Below are positions 56,015-64,000 of a stretch of 64,000 bases of DNA, piece after piece. The position numbers and the translations under genes are program-made. The notes under the pieces were generated by a model that did not search any database, was not told the origin of the DNA, and saw only the letters and a list, made by a program, of their open reading frames with translations. Numbering within the stretch: the first letter of the stretch is position 1; each line of letters starts with the position of its first letter. Source of the DNA: Chitinispirillum alkaliphilum (GTDB taxonomy: Bacteria; Fibrobacterota; Chitinivibrionia; Chitinivibrionales; Chitinispirillaceae). The stretch lies in contig LDWW01000022.1 in assembly GCA_001045525.1 (NCBI GenBank), forward strand, positions 1 to 64,000, written 5' to 3'.

Positions 56015-56518
56015 TTATTCAGATTTTAAAAAAACTGAAAAATCAGCAAAAGTATCTTTCATCTTGAAACCATTTTTCTCAGCCATTTTCTGCGCTCTTT
56101 TATTGTTGTGTTTTATTCTGGCCTTGAATCTTTGTACTCCAACATTCTCAAACATATGATTACAAATCAAACATATGGCTTCTGAGCCGATTCCGGAATT
56201 CCAATTAAAAGGATCGCCGATTACAATGTCAATCTCACACTCAGCTCTGTTTTTATCAAACGCAAATAATTCTAATTGACCCAGGTATGAATTGTCTTTC
56301 CTTCCTGCAACCACAAGACGAATCCTTTCGGGATCTATTTCTAAAGAGCTCTCCAGAAAGCCTAAAGTTTCTTCTTCTGTATGGTAATGCTCAAAGATTT
56401 CCGAATCCATCAAATCTTTTGTAACGGCTTTATTATTTACCCATAAGCGAATGTTATTAAAGTCCGTCATATCAAATTGTCTTAACTGTGTTTTATCACC
56501 TATTATTGGAAGGTTCAT
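56015..56518 (-). CDS. GNAT family N-acetyltransferase (RimJ/RimL-like) 1
   Basis: 167 residues, an acetyl-CoA-dependent acetyltransferase. The N-terminus (RQFDMTDFNNIRLWVNN) and the acetyl-CoA loop region (GDPFNWNSGIGSEAICLICNHMFENVGVQRFKARIKHNNKRAQKMAEKNGFK) fit the RimJ/RimL type. Target is unknown. It starts 17 bases after the end of the degenerate attC-like site at 56535-56638, as a cassette gene would. Confidence 0.85.
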   Translation of the reverse strand: MNLPIIGDKTQLRQFDMTDFNNIRLWVNNKAVTKDLMDSEIFEHYHTEEETLGFLESSLEIDPERIRLVVAGRKDNSYLGQLELFAFDKNRAECEIDIVIGDPFNWNSGIGSEAICLICNHMFENVGVQRFKARIKHNNKRAQKMAEKNGFKMKDTFADFSVFLKSE

Positions 56519-56534
56519 ATCTTTATTATCCCCC

Positions 56535-56638
56535 GTGCTACTCCTGCGACGCTTCGGAAAAACTTGCTAAATGTCTCATTGCAAATTGGTAATTGCATAC
56601 AGCGTTTTGACATAGGCTGAAGCGCCGCGTTGTTATGT
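56535..56638 (-). other. degenerate attC-like site
   Basis: Read on the minus strand: ACATAAC, then CGGCGCTTC (56627-56619), a loop of 63 bases, GAAGCGTCG (56555-56547), and GTAGCAC. The stem pairs 8 of 9. The first core resembles the R'' cores of the clearer sites (ACACAAC); the last fits GTTRRRY poorly. It lies between two minus-strand GNAT genes, 7 bases from the stop of one. Confidence 0.35.
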
Positions 56639-56644
56639 GTAGTT

Positions 56645-57178
56645 TTATTTTGACAATGTTCTGGCATATTGCAGTTGGTTAAGGAATGCTCCATTTTTGA
56701 TTATTGCATTTTTGAACAGCCCTTCTTTTTCAAATCCGGCTTTAATAAGCGCTTTTTCGGAACCTATGTTTGTTGCGAACAATTTTGCAAATACACGATT
56801 CAGTCCTAAATCAGAGAAAGCATATTCAGTGATTCTTGCAATTGCGGTTGTAATAAAACCATTTCCCCAATATGGTTCAGCTAACCAATATCCAAGTGCT
56901 GCGGAATTTTTTAATATATCTGTTTGATGGTTTAAGTGTATGTCTCCAATTGGTTCGTTTTTATATAGAATACAAAAATGAGTTTTTGAATCTTTAACAT
57001 CTTCAATGTATGATTTGGCATCTTCCAGGGTATAAGGATGCGGGAATTCGTCTCGGGATAAATTCCATATTTTTAAATTGTTTGCATATGTCGAAAATGA
57101 ATCTGCATACCCCAATTTAAATGAAGATAAAACTAAATCTGTAATTTCTGTTTTTAAAACCACGGTGTTTTTCTCCAA
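56645..57178 (-). CDS. GNAT family N-acetyltransferase (RimJ/RimL-like) 2
   Basis: About 172-177 residues. The GNAT core with acetyl-CoA loop is visible as ALGYWLAEPYWGNGFITTAIARITEYAFSDLGLNRVFAKLFATNIGSEKALIKAGFEKEGLF. Two starts are possible: TTG 57178 or GTG 57163, the latter with GGAG upstream. Probable target is a small molecule or protein N-terminus. It is followed, 7 bases after its stop, by the degenerate attC-like site. Confidence 0.87.
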   Translation of the reverse strand: MEKNTVVLKTEITDLVLSSFKLGYADSFSTYANNLKIWNLSRDEFPHPYTLEDAKSYIEDVKDSKTHFCILYKNEPIGDIHLNHQTDILKNSAALGYWLAEPYWGNGFITTAIARITEYAFSDLGLNRVFAKLFATNIGSEKALIKAGFEKEGLFKNAIIKNGAFLNQLQYARTLSK

Positions 57179-57333
57179 ATAGTATTACCTTTTACAGCTG
57201 TACTTTTTTAACCAAAGTTACACTTCGATTGCAACAGCTGCAATACGGAGCAAAGCAAAGCTACTGCTAATTTGCACCTACAGAATTTCTGTCTGTCTTT
57301 CCTGGTAAGGACCACTTATTTTTACTTTAAATC

Positions 57334-57828
57334 TCAAAGCTGTTTTTTTAATGCAACGATATTCGTTCCATCATACCTTTGATTTACATCAATACGATAA
57401 GGTTGAAATCCATTTTTTATTGTTAATACTAGCATCGGTAAATTGTCAGTGTATACAAGTGTTTGAATAGCTCTGTAGTTGCTATTTTTAGCATCCAACA
57501 TCGTCTTTTGAAGAAGCTGATTTCCAATTCCTTGCCTTTTAAAACTTGGTTTAATGCCTAATCCACAGATTTCATAGCCATTCAAAACATTTGCATTTAA
57601 AACTATTATGCCAACGACTTGATGCATTTTAATTGCAGTAAAATATCTCATCTGGCTATCTTTGGTTAATCCATAAACCCAATCCTCCAACATGCTATCA
57701 GTAAAGGTTTGTCCTGTTAAACTGAGATATTTATGGTTTTCCGGGTCATTCCAAATTTCGGTATGTGCTCTTATGTACCTACCCTTGTCTTTATCACTTG
57801 ACTGGTAATTCAGCTCAACTATTTCCAT
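57334..57828 (-). CDS. GNAT family N-acetyltransferase 3
   Basis: 164 residues. The acetyl-CoA loop is explicit: CGLGIKPSFKRQGIGNQLLQKTMLDAKNSNYRAIQTLVYTDNLPMLVLTIKNGFQPYRIDVNQRYDG. The ATG at 57828 follows TGAGGAAAGC. It is 38 bases downstream of the methyltransferase gene on the same strand, so the two may form one cassette or operon. Unlike the other two, it looks closer to the general GNAT type than to RimJ/RimL. Confidence 0.85.
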   Translation of the reverse strand: MEIVELNYQSSDKDKGRYIRAHTEIWNDPENHKYLSLTGQTFTDSMLEDWVYGLTKDSQMRYFTAIKMHQVVGIIVLNANVLNGYEICGLGIKPSFKRQGIGNQLLQKTMLDAKNSNYRAIQTLVYTDNLPMLVLTIKNGFQPYRIDVNQRYDGTNIVALKKQL

Positions 57829-57866
57829 GCTTTCCTCATTGTTTTTGTATTTCTCTTTGCCCCACC

Positions 57867-58481
57867 TTACTCCAGGCGAGTCCTGTTCCGTGCAATTATT
57901 TTATTTGCCGCATGCTCATGAATGATATTACCCGGATGGGTATCAGTAAACTGATATGAATCGAATTGTTCAATTTGCCAATCCTGGTAAATGTTTTTGA
58001 GCTCGCCATCCTTGAAAAGTCCTATACAATGATCCGTCAAATCATTGGGTATAGGCAGAATATCAGTAAAAATAGCTATAATGTTTAAACCATTTTGACT
58101 GGTGTGATTTTTAACTTCCAACAAAAAGTTTTCCCAGACGTTTCGATGCACCAGATGGAGAACACCATGCATGATAATGCAATCATATCTTGATTTGAAA
58201 ACAAACTGATCAATTGAACAAGTATAAGCATTTACTGAAAGAGATTTACTGTCTGCACAACTGGTGAGTTTGCCTATCCCTGCATCTGATATATCAAAAG
58301 CTTCGACATCAAAACCATTTTCAGCCAGATAAATTGCATTTCGCCCTTCTCCGCAACCAACATCTAAAATTTTTGAGTTTTTGTCCAACTCCTGAGATAA
58401 TTGCTTAATTTCTATGCTCGGCTCTCCAAACGTAGAAATATCATCTTCTCTGTAAGTCTTTTCCCAAAATGGTGAATCCAT
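57867..58481 (-). CDS. SAM-dependent methyltransferase (TehB-like)
   Basis: 204 residues, class I Rossmann methyltransferase. SAM-binding motif I is ILDVGCGEGRNAIYLAENGFDVEAFDIS; later motifs include YDCIIMHGVLHLVHR. The overall form (PFWEKTYREDDISTFGEPS at the start) resembles TehB/thiopurine-type small-molecule methyltransferases. The start follows AAAGGTAATTTAG. Substrate unknown. The gene lies just downstream of an IS3-type remnant. Confidence 0.85.
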   Translation of the reverse strand: MDSPFWEKTYREDDISTFGEPSIEIKQLSQELDKNSKILDVGCGEGRNAIYLAENGFDVEAFDISDAGIGKLTSCADSKSLSVNAYTCSIDQFVFKSRYDCIIMHGVLHLVHRNVWENFLLEVKNHTSQNGLNIIAIFTDILPIPNDLTDHCIGLFKDGELKNIYQDWQIEQFDSYQFTDTHPGNIIHEHAANKIIARNRTRLE

Positions 58482-59567: not shown

Positions 59568-59656
59568 AATTGCCCCTTATAGTTTTGTTAGAGAGTGTTC
59601 CTTAATAAACTCCATGTTCAAACCTTATCCACGGGTGACGTTGCGTATAGAATCCA

Positions 59657-60186
59657 GTTGAACGAATCCGCATTGATCAAAACCTGTGCTATATGGGTTT
59701 TATATTCAAGAGCCTGGCGACTAATTACTTGATATAATATAGTATAAAAATATTGATAGGTGGTGACAGGAGAATTTCCTAAAGAGAAAATCATGGAAAA
59801 CACAGGTTTTTTTACCTAAAAGTCTGTCGAATACTAATTTTGGAATTTGACAGAGCCAGAGCGGATAAGATTGTAGCATCCGGAAAAATATTTCGAAGTT
59901 TGAAAAACAGCATGGTGCCTAAGCTACATGTTGACAAAAAGGTTCGTTTCCGTTTCGGTATCTTCTTGGTAAGAGTTAACTTTTTGCTTCTACAATGCGG
60001 CGCGGGTGAAGCGATCCTGAAGCTCACACAATTTAACCTCCTGAAATTGTGGTTTGTTGAAATAAAAACGAACTACACATTACAGGAATTTGAAATCAAA
60101 TGCTTAACTGGGAGAAGTGTAATAAGTAGGATTAAGCTTATCAAGAGAGGAGACCAAAGGGCCACCGCGGAGCGGTTTTGTTCAAC
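59657..60186 (-). pseudogene. decayed tyrosine-recombinase cassette, copy 1
   Basis: Shares its 5' ~190 bases (from GTTGAAC at 60186 through an AGGAGG ribosome-binding site and CELQDRFTR) and its 3' ~150 bases with 62288-62922. The middle is replaced by unrelated sequence and the frame stops after a dozen codons, so nothing functional remains. Read on the minus strand, it begins at attC core GTTGAAC and ends with core GTTCAAC (59663-59657) followed by the first arm of its own attC; the second arm is missing. Confidence 0.6.
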
Positions 60187-60265
60187 GCTAAGGATTATAT
60201 CCGCAATTCCCCTAAACCCACATCTTGAACTCAGCCCCTCAATTGCGGATGTAATTCCGTTGAAC
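60180..60265 (-). other. attC-like recombination site A (86 bp)
   Basis: Minus strand: R'' = GTTCAAC (60265-60259), arm GGAATTACATCCGCAATT, loop of ~32 bases, arm AATTGCGGATATAATCC, then R' = GTTGAAC (60186-60180). Both cores match the integron consensus (RYYYAAC and GTTRRRY) perfectly. The arms pair with two mismatches and a 4-base bulge (TTAG) near R', like the unpaired bases of folded attC. Confidence 0.75.
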
Positions 60266-60607
60266 GAAGCCTGGCGGCTGCACACATTACCTTACATATT
60301 GTGTAGGAAATTGAATCCTGCCTGTTACTTGTCAACAGAGGCATATGGATAATTCAGTATCGGCAATAGGAGGGTGGAATATCTGTTCAGAAAGTGATTG
60401 CCCAAAAAAATCTTCTCACCTTATCAAAACAAACACCTTTTATACAGTTTAAGGAATGAAAACCTTGGGGCTCCTAAAAAGCTGCTCTTTAAAAGACAAA
60501 AAATCGGTACTTTTTTATACCTCAAGTACTCCCAAAATGCTCCGTCTTACATCCTGAGATTTAGGGTATTCCCTCCTGAACCAAAATCAGCTGTTTTCTC
60601 CGGCCTG

Positions 60608-60919
60608 TCATTGCGGTAAGTACCATTCTTCCTTTTTGACACTCCTGCAGACAAGCGCCTCGTTGCCGGTAATACACTCAATGATATCATACCAGTGAAC
60701 GAAAGACACCTTTGTATCCGCTTCTGATTTCTCTTCTGATTCAAGAAGCAGCTTTTTGCAAACAGCCAAATGCGTCTTCTGCAGACCATTGCTCAGAAAC
60801 CCAAAATGCCAGATCCGCATAAACCCTGCCGGAACCACAGGAAGCATGAGCCATCTGATAAACTCCTCACAACACTTGATAATGCAATTGCAACAGCATC
60901 GCTCGACAGGTTTCTTCAT
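60608..60919 (-). pseudogene. IS91-family transposase C-terminal fragment
   Basis: A 103-residue frame with EEFIRWLMLPVVPAGFMRIWHFGFLSNGLQKTHLAVCKKLLLES, the pattern of the Y2-type IS91 transposase C-terminal part (…P.GF.RIRHYGFL.N…L..C..LL). The N-terminal catalytic region is absent. It lies inside the cassette that ends with attC A, which has no other recognisable gene. Confidence 0.62.
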
Positions 60920-61494
60920 CAGCCGATGTGGTCATAATGAAAGGAGAAAGCTACAGAATCAAAAACCGGACAAAACTGGGTTTTGTACCCTCAAACCTGA
61001 TATCTTCTGAAAAGAAAAATCGGAAATGTTAAACCGGGGGTGACAACTGCGAATGGAAGATATAGGGGGGACATCCGGAAGGTATATCTCGTAAAAAGCA
61101 CGCAAACCGTAGTAAATTGAGTTAAAGGAGCGTGGAGCAAAAAAGCTCTGATATCATTCTCCGTCAAAGATGTAAAAGTGGTTTATTGAAACTGGTATTG
61201 ATCATGCCTCTGGGCAGGAGGGATGCAATGGTAACATAGGAGATGAATGTGCGGTAAAGGAGTGTGTCATTGCCGATGTCAAATGAGCATTTGTGGATGC
61301 CTGTAGGTTTGCTATGCAAAAAAAGGAGTTTTTAATTTCTGTGGGGGAGTAATTTCAAATAGGAATCGTTAAACAGTATGTATCTTTAAGGGATTAATGT
61401 CTATCTCACAACAGCCTGTCCCGGAATCTGAAGTTAAGCCCTGAATACTTTTTCCTATAAATAATATAGCAGCAGTTGCTTTGATGAGCGCTTC
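60920..61494. other. gene-less part of the IS91-fragment cassette
   Basis: About 575 bases between the IS91 fragment and attC B with no convincing frame on either strand. It was probably filler brought in with the IS91 relic. Confidence 0.35.
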
Positions 61495-61548
61495 GTTCAA
61501 CAGTTTTTTTCTGCATCCTGAATGCAGAAAAAACGCTTGATGTTGTGT
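61495..61548 (-). other. attC-like recombination site B (54 bp)
   Basis: Minus strand: R'' = ACACAAC (61548-61542), ATCAAGC, a near-perfect hairpin (GTTTTTTCTGCAT / ATGCAGAAAAAAAC with a 5-base loop), then R' = GTTGAAC (61501-61495). R' matches GTTRRRY. It lies 20 bases after the methyltransferase stop, and its length is within the attC range. Confidence 0.72.
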
Positions 61549-61567
61549 GTCTGTTTCGGGCACATTT

Positions 61568-62248
61568 TTATTTCAAAGCCAATATAACTCCAAATTTCAT
61601 GTAACTATAAATACACTCAACAGATTTAAAGCCAATCTTTAACAATAGATCTTTTGTGTCGTCTATTGAATTTTCTTTATCTAATTCTCTCCTTTTCAAC
61701 CAAGAATCAAGTTCTGCTCCTGTAATTTTGCTATTATCAATAAATTCATACCAGGACTCGTCATAGTATTGATTCATTATTTCAGATGAGGCGTTAAATT
61801 GATCGAGATTAATTAAGCAACCATTTGCATTTAATTTATCAAATATACCAGAGTACAAATTAACTTTATTTGTATCGTCTATATGATGTATTGATAATGC
61901 TGATGCGATTAAATCAAATTTACTTGAAGGCAACTCTTTTGAATAATCTGAAATCGAAAAGTTAAAATTCGTTAAGCCTTGAAATCGCTGTCGAGCAACC
62001 TCTAACATCTGTTACGATATGTCTACTAAAGTATAATTTGCATTAGGATATTTTTCATATAAACATTTTGTTAACAAACCAGTGCCAGCACCCAAATCAA
62101 GAATATACTTAAAATCATTATTTATTTTAGAAAGAAAAGCGATGCTTGTGCAGTAATAGTCATCAAAACATGGAATAAACAACCTACGTTGTTCATCATA
62201 CTTTTTCGCAACTTCGTCAAATCTTTCTGATATTTCTTTATTTTCCAC
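61568..62248 (-). pseudogene. SAM-dependent methyltransferase with in-frame nonsense codon
   Basis: Two halves of one class I methyltransferase in the same frame. The first: GTG start at 62248 after GGAGAG, ISERFDEVAKKYDEQRRLFIPCFDDYY, motif I YILDLGAGTGLLTKCLYEKYPNANYTLVDIS. Then TAA (62014-62012), CAG, and ATG (62008) opening the second half: MLEVARQRF...FDLIASALSIHHIDD...LKKRELDKENSIDDTKDLLLKIGFKSVECIYSYMKFGVILALK. The stop sits where GAA is expected (VDISEQMLEVA), so one substitution broke the gene, or it is a sequence error. It is a cassette gene: boundary at 62288, own attC B at 61495-61548. Confidence 0.8.
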
Positions 62249-62287
62249 TCTTATCTCTCCACATTTCATCTTGTGCCCGAAAATAGC

Positions 62288-62387
62288 GCACAACATTTAG
62301 GATTCTATCCGTAGCTTCACACAAAATACCAAACTTCACGTTCAAACCTTACCCGCGGGTTACGTTGCGGATAGAATCCAGATGAAC
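62288..62387 (-). other. attC-like recombination site C (100 bp)
   Basis: Minus strand: R'' = GTTCATC (62387-62381), then GGATTCTATCCG (62379-62368), a loop of 56 bases, the perfect complement CGGATAGAATCC (62311-62300), then R' = GTTGTGC (62294-62288). The 12-bp stem is perfect. The related site in the 59.6 kb copy has R'' GTTCAAC, so GTTCATC is a one-base change. Confidence 0.7.
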
Positions 62388-62767
62388 GAATCCGCATTGA
62401 TCAAAACCTGTGCTATATGGGTTTTGTATTGAGAGCCTGACAATCTGATTACTTGATGTAATATAGTAAAAAATAATGATAGGTGGTAACAGGGAGAATT
62501 TTTTTTGACTTTCTTGAGAGCCGGAGACCATGGTGTTGAAAAATGTTTTGAGGGCACCAATGTGTAAATTTATCGATGCCAGAGCAAGCTTTTCCGCTGT
62601 TAGTTCGTGGTGCAAAAACCCGATGATATCGTCGCGGGACAGATCCAGTATTGGTTCACCACTGAAACAGCAAGCTTTTCGAATGCATTTGTATAGTTGC
62701 AAATTGTTTTGGGGGCAAGATTCCTTAATTTTATCTCGCAGGTGAAGCGTTCCTGAAGCTCACACAA
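62349..62767 (-). pseudogene. tyrosine-recombinase N-terminal fragment, copy 2 (frameshifted)
   Basis: Starts at TTG 62767 after AGGAGG: CELQERFTCEIKLRNLAPKTICNYTNAFEKLA, then a +1/-1 shift near 62670 into GEPILDLSRDDIIGFLHHELTAEKLALASINLHIGALKTFFNTMV. This is the SAM-like core-binding N-terminal domain of phage-integrase/XerC-D-type recombinases, of the kind that also accompanies IS91 transposases. The catalytic C-terminal domain (R...H-R..Y) is entirely missing. It is carried by a 628-bp cassette (62922-62294) ending with attC C. Its last third overlaps attC C. Confidence 0.72.
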
Positions 62768-62915
62768 ATTGACCTCCTGAAATTGTGGCTTGTTGAAATA
62801 AAAACAAACTACATATTACAGGAATTTGAAATCAAATGCTTAACTGGGATAAAAGTAATAAGTAGGATTAAGCTTATCAAAAGACGGGATCAAAGGGTCA
62901 CCGCGGAGCGGTTTT

Positions 62916-63010
62916 GTTCAACATGTTGCGGCACACCAGAAGTAATGCGGCTATACATTTTTATCTAACATATATCAACTTCGCATTAATTTGGGTTGCC
63001 ACTGTTGTGT
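62916..63010 (-). other. attC-like recombination site D (95 bp)
   Basis: Minus strand: R'' = ACACAAC (63010-63004), an arm (GGCAACCCAAATTAATGCG) and, after a ~30-base loop, its near-complement (CGCATTACTTCTGGTGTGCC), then R' = GTTGAAC (62922-62916). The innermost 10 base pairs have one mismatch. It lies 39 bases after the stop of the SEC-C gene. Confidence 0.65.
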
Positions 63011-63048: not shown

Positions 63049-63672
63049 TTATTCTTCTTCTCCCCAGTAGTATTGCTCTGGTGCTTTACCTGTCTTAGAA
63101 ATTACTTTATTTCTATTTAATTCCGAAGATTCAGATTCCCTTATATCAACTACCTTGACTTTGTGAAGTATTTGATCTCCATAATCAAATAAATATGTGA
63201 ATTCTCGTCCAAGATAAAGATTTAAATCTCTAATTTGTGTATCACTTGCAGATTTTGTAGGTTCACTAAATGTTGAAATTATATGTTCTCCAAGAGGGTT
63301 GGCAGTGTACTCATTTTCTCTATCGTACTCATCTTTTCCCAGATAAAATGAAAACATATGATTATTATCCCAATCGAACGCCCCTTGAATACTTAAATGT
63401 AATTGGTATAAAGAATTTTTGCCATTTAATTCTATGATGCACGAAATTTCTTCAGTTATTTCTCTATATGGTATCCTAAGTAGTTCAACTTTAAATACGT
63501 AAATTTTCAAAGTTTCAGACAATATGGTTTTGATGTCCTCTGGTTTTTCTGCTAAACGAATCGCTCTTAGCAATTCAAATTTCTTTTTGTCATCCATGAA
63601 ACAACATTTTTTATATTTTTTGCCGCTTCCACAGGGGCAAGATTCATTTCTACTCGGCTCTTTCATTATCAT
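63049..63672 (-). CDS. SEC-C motif / pRiA4b ORF-3-like protein
   Basis: About 207 residues. The N-terminal zinc-binding SEC-C motif (PSRNESCPCGSGKKYKKCC) is followed by a linker of ~55 residues and then a plasmid pRiA4b ORF-3-like domain (LYQLHLSIQGAFDWDNNHMFSFYLG; FTYLFDYGDQILHKVKVVDI; ending PEQYYWGEEE). Both are known from proteins of unknown function often found on mobile DNA. Start is ATG 63672 or 63666 (in-frame TTG 63681). Cassette gene ending in attC D. Confidence 0.82.
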   Translation of the reverse strand: MIMKEPSRNESCPCGSGKKYKKCCFMDDKKKFELLRAIRLAEKPEDIKTILSETLKIYVFKVELLRIPYREITEEISCIIELNGKNSLYQLHLSIQGAFDWDNNHMFSFYLGKDEYDRENEYTANPLGEHIISTFSEPTKSASDTQIRDLNLYLGREFTYLFDYGDQILHKVKVVDIRESESSELNRNKVISKTGKAPEQYYWGEEE

Positions 63673-63728
63673 TATATCCAATTGTTAAAATTAAACTAAC
63701 ACCCCATTTGGTGCAACAATTCATAATC

Positions 63729-63912: not shown

Positions 63913-64000
63913 CTCGCGCCCGTCTTCTGTCTTAGGGGCAAACAGGCATGGCCACCAACGTTTCTCGCCACTCGCACGCTGTACCAGCAGTAATGCTGAG

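Follow-up and report, generated by a model that had tools for sequence, protein, structure and literature searches.

A decayed gene-cassette array in Chitinispirillum alkaliphilum and its probable origin from integrons with a non-IntI integrase

Chitinispirillum alkaliphilum carries a gene-cassette array near the end of the stretch of DNA that we analyzed (the window, which is the first 64,000 nucleotides of the 68,165-bp contig 22). The original prediction for this region, made from its sequence, was that it contains four attC-like recombination sites and no complete integrase, and that it is a CALIN (cluster of attC sites lacking an integron integrase). We confirmed that the region is a real but decayed array of the integron type, and the interpretation as a whole was partly supported. 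In this genome and in genomes with homologous recombinases we found attC sites, cassette boundaries at G^TT (the caret marks the crossover), attI sites that serve as hubs, and a conserved layout; the genome of C. alkaliphilum has no IntI. We estimate a probability of roughly 80% that these are integrons run by an integrase other than IntI, and that the window holds a decayed stretch of array whose platform (a recombinase gene and its attI site) lies elsewhere in the genome.

We re-read all four sites, which are on the minus strand as proposed, with the R' core GTTGAAC at three of them and GTTGTGC at the other. Site A (60180-60265, 86 bp) has R'' GTTCAAC at 60259-60265 and R' GTTGAAC at 60180-60186. 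Five copies of this site in the genome are alike up to ...CCTTAGCG and then split at TT, where integrons cross over; an extra TT is present in two of these copies. Site A thus behaves as an attC. Site C (62288-62387) has R' GTTGTGC at 62288-62294, a 12-bp inner stem, and a decayed R'' (GTTCATC, 62381-62387), and site D (62916-63010) has R'' ACACAAC at 63004-63010 and R' GTTGAAC at 62916-62922. Site B (61495-61548) is not a plain attC, as we describe below. Furthermore, the array continues beyond the end of the window, to a fifth attC at 65301-65399 of the contig, which is a sister copy of site C with an intact R''. On the other side, half of a C-type attC remains at 59607-59663 (minus strand): its R'' (GTTCAAC, 59657-59663) and one arm are 92% identical to 62331-62387, its R' half is lost, and the other arm is not in the sequence.

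To rank these sites, we scanned the whole contig for hairpins with an R'' of the form RYYYAAC, an R' of the form GTTRRRY (at most one mismatch in each), and an inner stem. A scan with a narrow stem offset misses site A, and we used a wider band for the final ranking. The top four hairpins were the fifth site (score 21.4), A (19.9), D (14.7), and B (12.9); site C is absent from the scan because its decayed R'' lacks the AAC. Markov shuffles of the contig gave 1.15 matches per contig at a score of 12 or above and 0.1 at 14 or above; the highest score seen among 40 shuffles was 17.3. Because shuffled contigs give about one match at its score, site B is only suggestive by score alone. Single matches this weak are what chance hairpins in A+T-rich sequence would produce, but we give chance next to no credence as the source of the array: the best four hairpins of 68 kb are clustered in 5.3 kb, and chance would not account for conserved site families with compensatory changes or for the matching of cores that we report next. 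The motif GTTGAAC is not enriched in the window (11 seen, 9.2 expected) and does not by itself mark the array, so the evidence consists of the hairpin structure and the logic of the cassettes. Rfam, at its curated thresholds, has no match anywhere in the window.

Equivalent sites are present elsewhere in the genome, as the original prediction required of a real array. A family of 150-bp attC sites occurs at nine places (on contigs 4, 6, 12, 58, 77, and 81) and is clearly matched in five other genomes of the same taxonomic family. Compensatory changes are seen in 15 of its 33 consensus pairs, and in the three sites that we compared, the bottom strand folds more stably than the top strand. The cassettes of the window had been supported by a boundary test, in which the core at the 5' end of each cassette should be the reverse complement of that cassette's own R''. 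We repeated this test and extended it to successive cores across the genome. The match was exact in 10 of 13 cases and was at least 6/7 in all of them, as compared to a permuted mean of 3.3 exact matches, and none of 20,000 permutations reached as high. In this genome, attC hairpins with R'' and R' cores stand at the ends of cassettes.

The genome also contains three recombinase-attI platforms, all of them broken. On contigs 4, 12, and 81, the relic of a truncated tyrosine recombinase gene is followed, about 200 bases downstream, by an attI, which is a palindrome and then G^TT. The three copies are near-identical through the relic up to TTAAAGTGTGACCTAAGAAGTTCACACTTTAAGGAG and then split at once (TTGGCT, TTGTGC, and TTGTGC), with the point of divergence at exactly ...CTTTAAGGAG^TTG, where three different cassettes are joined. 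The R'' of the first cassette matches the platform core in each case (AGCCAAC on contig 4, GCACAAC on contigs 81 and 12). We read this divergence, from the sequences, as the trace of three different cassettes inserted at one docking site. Thus, outside the window, the first cassettes on contigs 4, 12, and 81 begin at the G^TT of an attI, as in integrons. In contrast to the usual integron layout, in which the integrase gene is divergent and attI is at its 5' end, here attI is 3' of the recombinase gene and the array is co-directional with it. The middle of each relic is lost; the C-terminus (SSSKTTEI.THV...IKSPL) looks XerA-like, not IntI-like.

IntI itself is absent from the whole genome (the best match to TIGR02249 scores 90.5 bits, with a cut-off of 265), so the claim that a complete integrase is lacking holds well beyond the window, and no IntI-clade integrase bearing the additional domain is encoded in the genome. 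On contig 22, the array, with more than one attC site and no IntI nearby, does fit the definition of a CALIN (at least two attC sites), and its cassettes are real. This label nevertheless understates the case, because the genome carries the three non-IntI platforms; the cluster is orphaned only of IntI.

Using the recombinase of contig 58 (part of a mobile element, see below) as the query, we scanned named genomes. In Cesiribacter sp. SM1, at least seven attC-like sites of 125 bp, whose stems covary, lie downstream of a homologue of the recombinase, and Saonia flava, Tamlana agarivorans, and Mesonia oceanica share this layout: recombinase, palindrome, G^TTRRRY, cassettes. A palindrome with GTT a few bases after it lies 3' of the stop codon in all 10 close homologues, and also in one genome from the same family as C. 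alkaliphilum (G009) and in two from the same order (G033 and G035). Homologues also occur in Proteobacteria and Firmicutes.

At 20 Flavobacteriales loci that encode homologues, we counted 18 attC-like sites in 254 kb downstream of the recombinase, 1 in 79 kb upstream, and 2 in 352 kb of shuffled sequence. Successive cores at homologue loci matched exactly in 15 of 22 pairs (permuted mean 2.1; none of 5000 permutations as high). Furthermore, the attI core that is predicted from the first R'' was present at most 134 bases past the recombinase stop codon at 6 loci, as compared to an expectation of about 0.15 (by our own arithmetic, for about 18 loci of 150 bases). Locus L138, with 60-bp attC sites, was excluded because its genome has a true IntI.

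These loci also bear on the prediction that genes should differ from genome to genome as whole units with the cores at their edges, which we saw in these related systems. Two genomes share a cassette, about 1.1 kb long and 78% identical, whose start is exactly at ^GTTGGTGG; in one genome it is at attI, after the recombinase, and in the other it follows an attC in the middle of the array. Among 192 short segments shared between homologue loci, 88 end at the CGTT core in both (0 for random ends). As a separate observation, L095 and L255 have unlike attI sequences and the same end of the first cassette (94% over 109 bases) from GTTGTG onward. Also, a divergent open reading frame of 133-134 amino acids with the cysteine motif CLYCKKVLIGRTDKKYCNLHC lies directly upstream of the recombinase in Bacteroidota platforms (L154 5378-5779, L102 7095-7493, L242, L244, and L246); no NCBIfam model matches it.

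Some of the cargo resembles defence genes. Cassette contigs of C. alkaliphilum encode a DUF2326 protein together with an ABC-3C CTD11 protein; they also encode a metallophosphatase-STAND protein, which has a match to PDC-S60. The array of Saonia includes a type II restriction-modification system and a defence-type reverse transcriptase. More broadly, many cassette genes at contig 58 (5808-12125), L008 (9904-12972), and L102 (9255-15691) match defence families (ABC-3C, PDC-S60, restriction-modification, reverse transcriptase).

The recombinase homologues retain the catalytic R, K, H-R-H, and Y positions, and when aligned with the IntI of related genomes they lack the insert of about 45 residues that those proteins have. 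This additional domain is regarded as a defining feature that integrons require for recombination (PMC9668308, which cites Messier and Roy 2001); in a classification of tyrosine recombinases, the insertion was not fully conserved in the integron-like subgroup (PMC8138268). A maximum-likelihood tree groups nine IntI in a single clade (100/100), and the platform recombinases fall outside of it. The closest family model of the Saonia recombinase is NF040815 from NCBIfam ("site-specific tyrosine recombinase/integron integrase"), with 233 bits and a cut-off of 220; the other homologues score near the cut-off. In this likeness the platform enzymes are simple, XerA-like tyrosine recombinases. The named function of XerA is chromosome dimer resolution; in contrast, the recombinases here are linked to attI and to attC arrays.

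Could an ordinary integron have produced these arrays? Under this explanation, IntI built the array and was then lost, or acts from other hosts, and the tyrosine recombinases are passengers. CALINs are indeed common and are more widely spread than complete integrons (PMC9668308, PMC9024848), and IntI above the cut-off is found in one genome from the same family as C. alkaliphilum and in five from the same order, one of them with an array of 138-bp attC sites. But this explanation leaves out the attI that lies directly 3' of a non-IntI recombinase in three copies here and at many other loci. Furthermore, none of the 16 Bacteroidota genomes (6 + 10) with such recombinases, several of which are in one large contig, has IntI above the cut-off, and the order-mate's IntI array uses other cores (GTTAGGC). 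We therefore consider ordinary integron remains to be unlikely. Outside of this comparison, we note that true IntI with the additional domain is encoded at L172 (genome G031, contig 30) and L171 (genome G014, contig 8), in the same order and family as C. alkaliphilum. The IntI of G031 is accompanied by at least four 138-bp attC sites of the GTTAGGC type. A single order contains the two kinds of integrase.

Several points do weigh against integrons run by a non-IntI integrase. Because true IntI genes are present in the family-mate and in several order-mates, IntI could once have acted in this genome. With the middle of the relics lost, their own lack of the insert is not visible, and they are placed by the C-terminus and by their intact relatives. 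Contig 22 has no platform, and the contigs are too short to link the array to one. Some homologue loci have no attC-like site at all. Finally, the platform recombinases are not one clade (there are four label changes in the tree); for this reason, IntI may itself have arisen among recombinases of the platform type.

Site B leads to a second component of the array, an IS91-family element. Positions 61163 to 61556 share 91% identity with the right end of an intact copy of this element on contig 58 (2806-5460). The intact copy has a gene for a tyrosine recombinase, with a frameshift near the start, and one for a Y2 transposase that carries the IS91 zinc domain; these proteins match Phage_integrase, Y2_Tnp (PF04986, 206 bits), and Zn_Tnp_IS91 (PF14319, 104 bits), so this is an IS91-family element with an HUH transposase of the Y2 type. 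The hairpin at its right end, AACATCAAGCGTTTTTTCTGCATTCAGGATGCAGAAAAAA, is kept in ten copies across the genome (on contigs 4, 22, 31, 53, 58, and 74). At the edge of this hairpin, all ten copies have RYNYAAC (with ACAC, GCAC, ATAT, GCCT, or GCAT before the AAC), and the outer flanks differ. Because the hairpin is conserved and the core abuts it in every copy, site B consists of a true R'' core (ACACAAC, 61542-61548) and, next to it, one end of an insertion element, whose terminal hairpin brings its own GTTGAAC (61495-61501). We looked for an empty target site and found none.

Two other views of the contig-58 element were rejected. Its full-length recombinase is not IntI: it lacks the insert, has the frameshift near its start, and is part of the IS91-family element. 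Nor is the element a plain cassette, because the conserved part does not stop at the element's R' core, as a cassette would, but runs on to an R'' core. Homologous elements are present in two genomes of the same family, G006 (proteins 86% identical) and G005 (41-46%), with an attC-like hairpin in the same position, beside GTTGTGC and GTTACAC. Given the R'' core at the right end of all ten copies and in these two family-mates, this is possibly an attC-targeting group of IS91 elements with a tyrosine recombinase of its own.

Given these elements, one might ask if all the sites are insertion scars, with IS91-family HUH transposons inserting at hairpins or at YAAC cores and so making look-alikes of attC. 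Site B is such an element end, and several "cassettes" of the window are fragments of the element. We consider this very improbable for the array as a whole, though, since unrelated genes adjoin sites A, C, and D as well as the fifth site and the 150-bp family, with no element there, and the copies of site A split at G^TT. Scars would also leave the divergence at attI and the matching of cores unexplained, and no element of this kind is seen at the sites of the Bacteroidota arrays.

The element resembles other IS91-family members with an upstream tyrosine recombinase gene, in its Y2 transposase, zinc domain, gene order, and terminal hairpin. IS91 itself targets GAAC or CAAG; here all ten right ends abut the R'' core of an attC. 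Mobile elements located at attC sites are known, such as the IS1111-attC elements and the group IIC-attC introns, and the difference is that the main element here is of the IS91 family and is seated at R''. In the papers that we searched, we found no report of an IS91-family element at an attC R''. Contig 77 also contains a group II intron (637-2900; matches to Rfam RF00029 and RF02012, with a reverse transcriptase at 741-2258), which seems to split the R' core of an attC (GTTGT...).

The array in the window contains the following genes and fragments. The IS91-family remnant (tyrosine recombinase and Y2 transposase) is at 60266-61494 on the plus strand, opposite in direction to the cassettes. 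N-terminal fragments of a recombinase form two cassettes on the minus strand, at 59664-60179 and at 62388-62915; the latter has a weak match, under the cut-off, to Phage_int_SAM_4. The two are joined by repeat pairs (60001-60186 with 62737-62922, and 59607-59706 with 62331-62430) that are 92% identical each and end at the core. The recombinase and IS91-fragment cassettes had been described as separate; their boundaries do fall at an R' core, but they look like pieces of one element family. The methyltransferase cassette gene (61568-62296, minus strand) is broken into two frames (62012-62296 and 61568-62008), and both halves match methyltransferase domains. Ahead of attC D is the gene for a SEC-C / PRiA4_ORF3 protein of 210 amino acids (63049-63681, minus strand), and the end of the window cuts through a gene for a class III aminotransferase (434 amino acids, minus strand), whose 3' end is at 63932-64000; this gene runs to 65236 of the contig and is preceded by the fifth attC.

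Beside the array, the minus strand at 56015-58481 has three GNAT acetyltransferase genes and a gene for a TehB-like methyltransferase, which look like they could be older cassettes. At 56560-56639, 3' of one of the GNAT genes, is what looks like a decayed attC, with an ACATAAC core (56632-56638), the arms GCGGCGCTTC / GAAGCGTCGC, and no R'.

How would a system with a non-IntI integrase work? Cassettes would be joined by site-specific recombination at G^TTRRRY between attI and attC hairpins. The probable catalyst of the attI x attC crossover is a XerA/XerD-like tyrosine recombinase without the IntI insertion, which would act on the folded single-stranded bottom strands of attC. In C. alkaliphilum this recombinase appears to have been lost and the system would be dead; as a consequence, the array would have decayed and been broken up by IS91-family elements seated at the R'' cores of attC sites.

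With IntI integrons, these systems share attI, attC hairpins with R'' and R', the G^TT crossover, co-directional cassettes, and a 5' core that matches the cassette's own R''. They differ in that the integrase falls outside the IntI clade and lacks the additional domain, that the integrase gene is directed toward attI and the array, and that attI is a palindrome plus a core. We think it likely, from these genome comparisons, that Bacteroidota and the lineage of C. alkaliphilum have a second class of integron, with a XerA/XerD-like integrase that lacks the additional domain and whose gene precedes, in the same direction, a palindromic attI and an attC array carrying defence genes. The window would be a decayed member of this class that was invaded by an IS91-family element targeting attC cores. 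A complete integron in Bacteroidetes was reported by IntegronFinder 2.0 in Salinibacter, and complete integrons were otherwise hardly known there (PMC9024848). In our literature search we found no account of arrays that depend on a recombinase lacking the additional domain; subscription papers and preprints were mostly outside of this search, and an earlier report is possible.

If a recombinase without the additional domain does run attI x attC recombination, then integron function would be older than IntI or would have arisen more widely. The role of IntI's additional domain becomes directly testable with natural proteins. In that case, many arrays that have been filed as CALINs may have an adjacent integrase that was overlooked, and a large pool of cassettes, including defence genes, would become visible in marine Bacteroidota.

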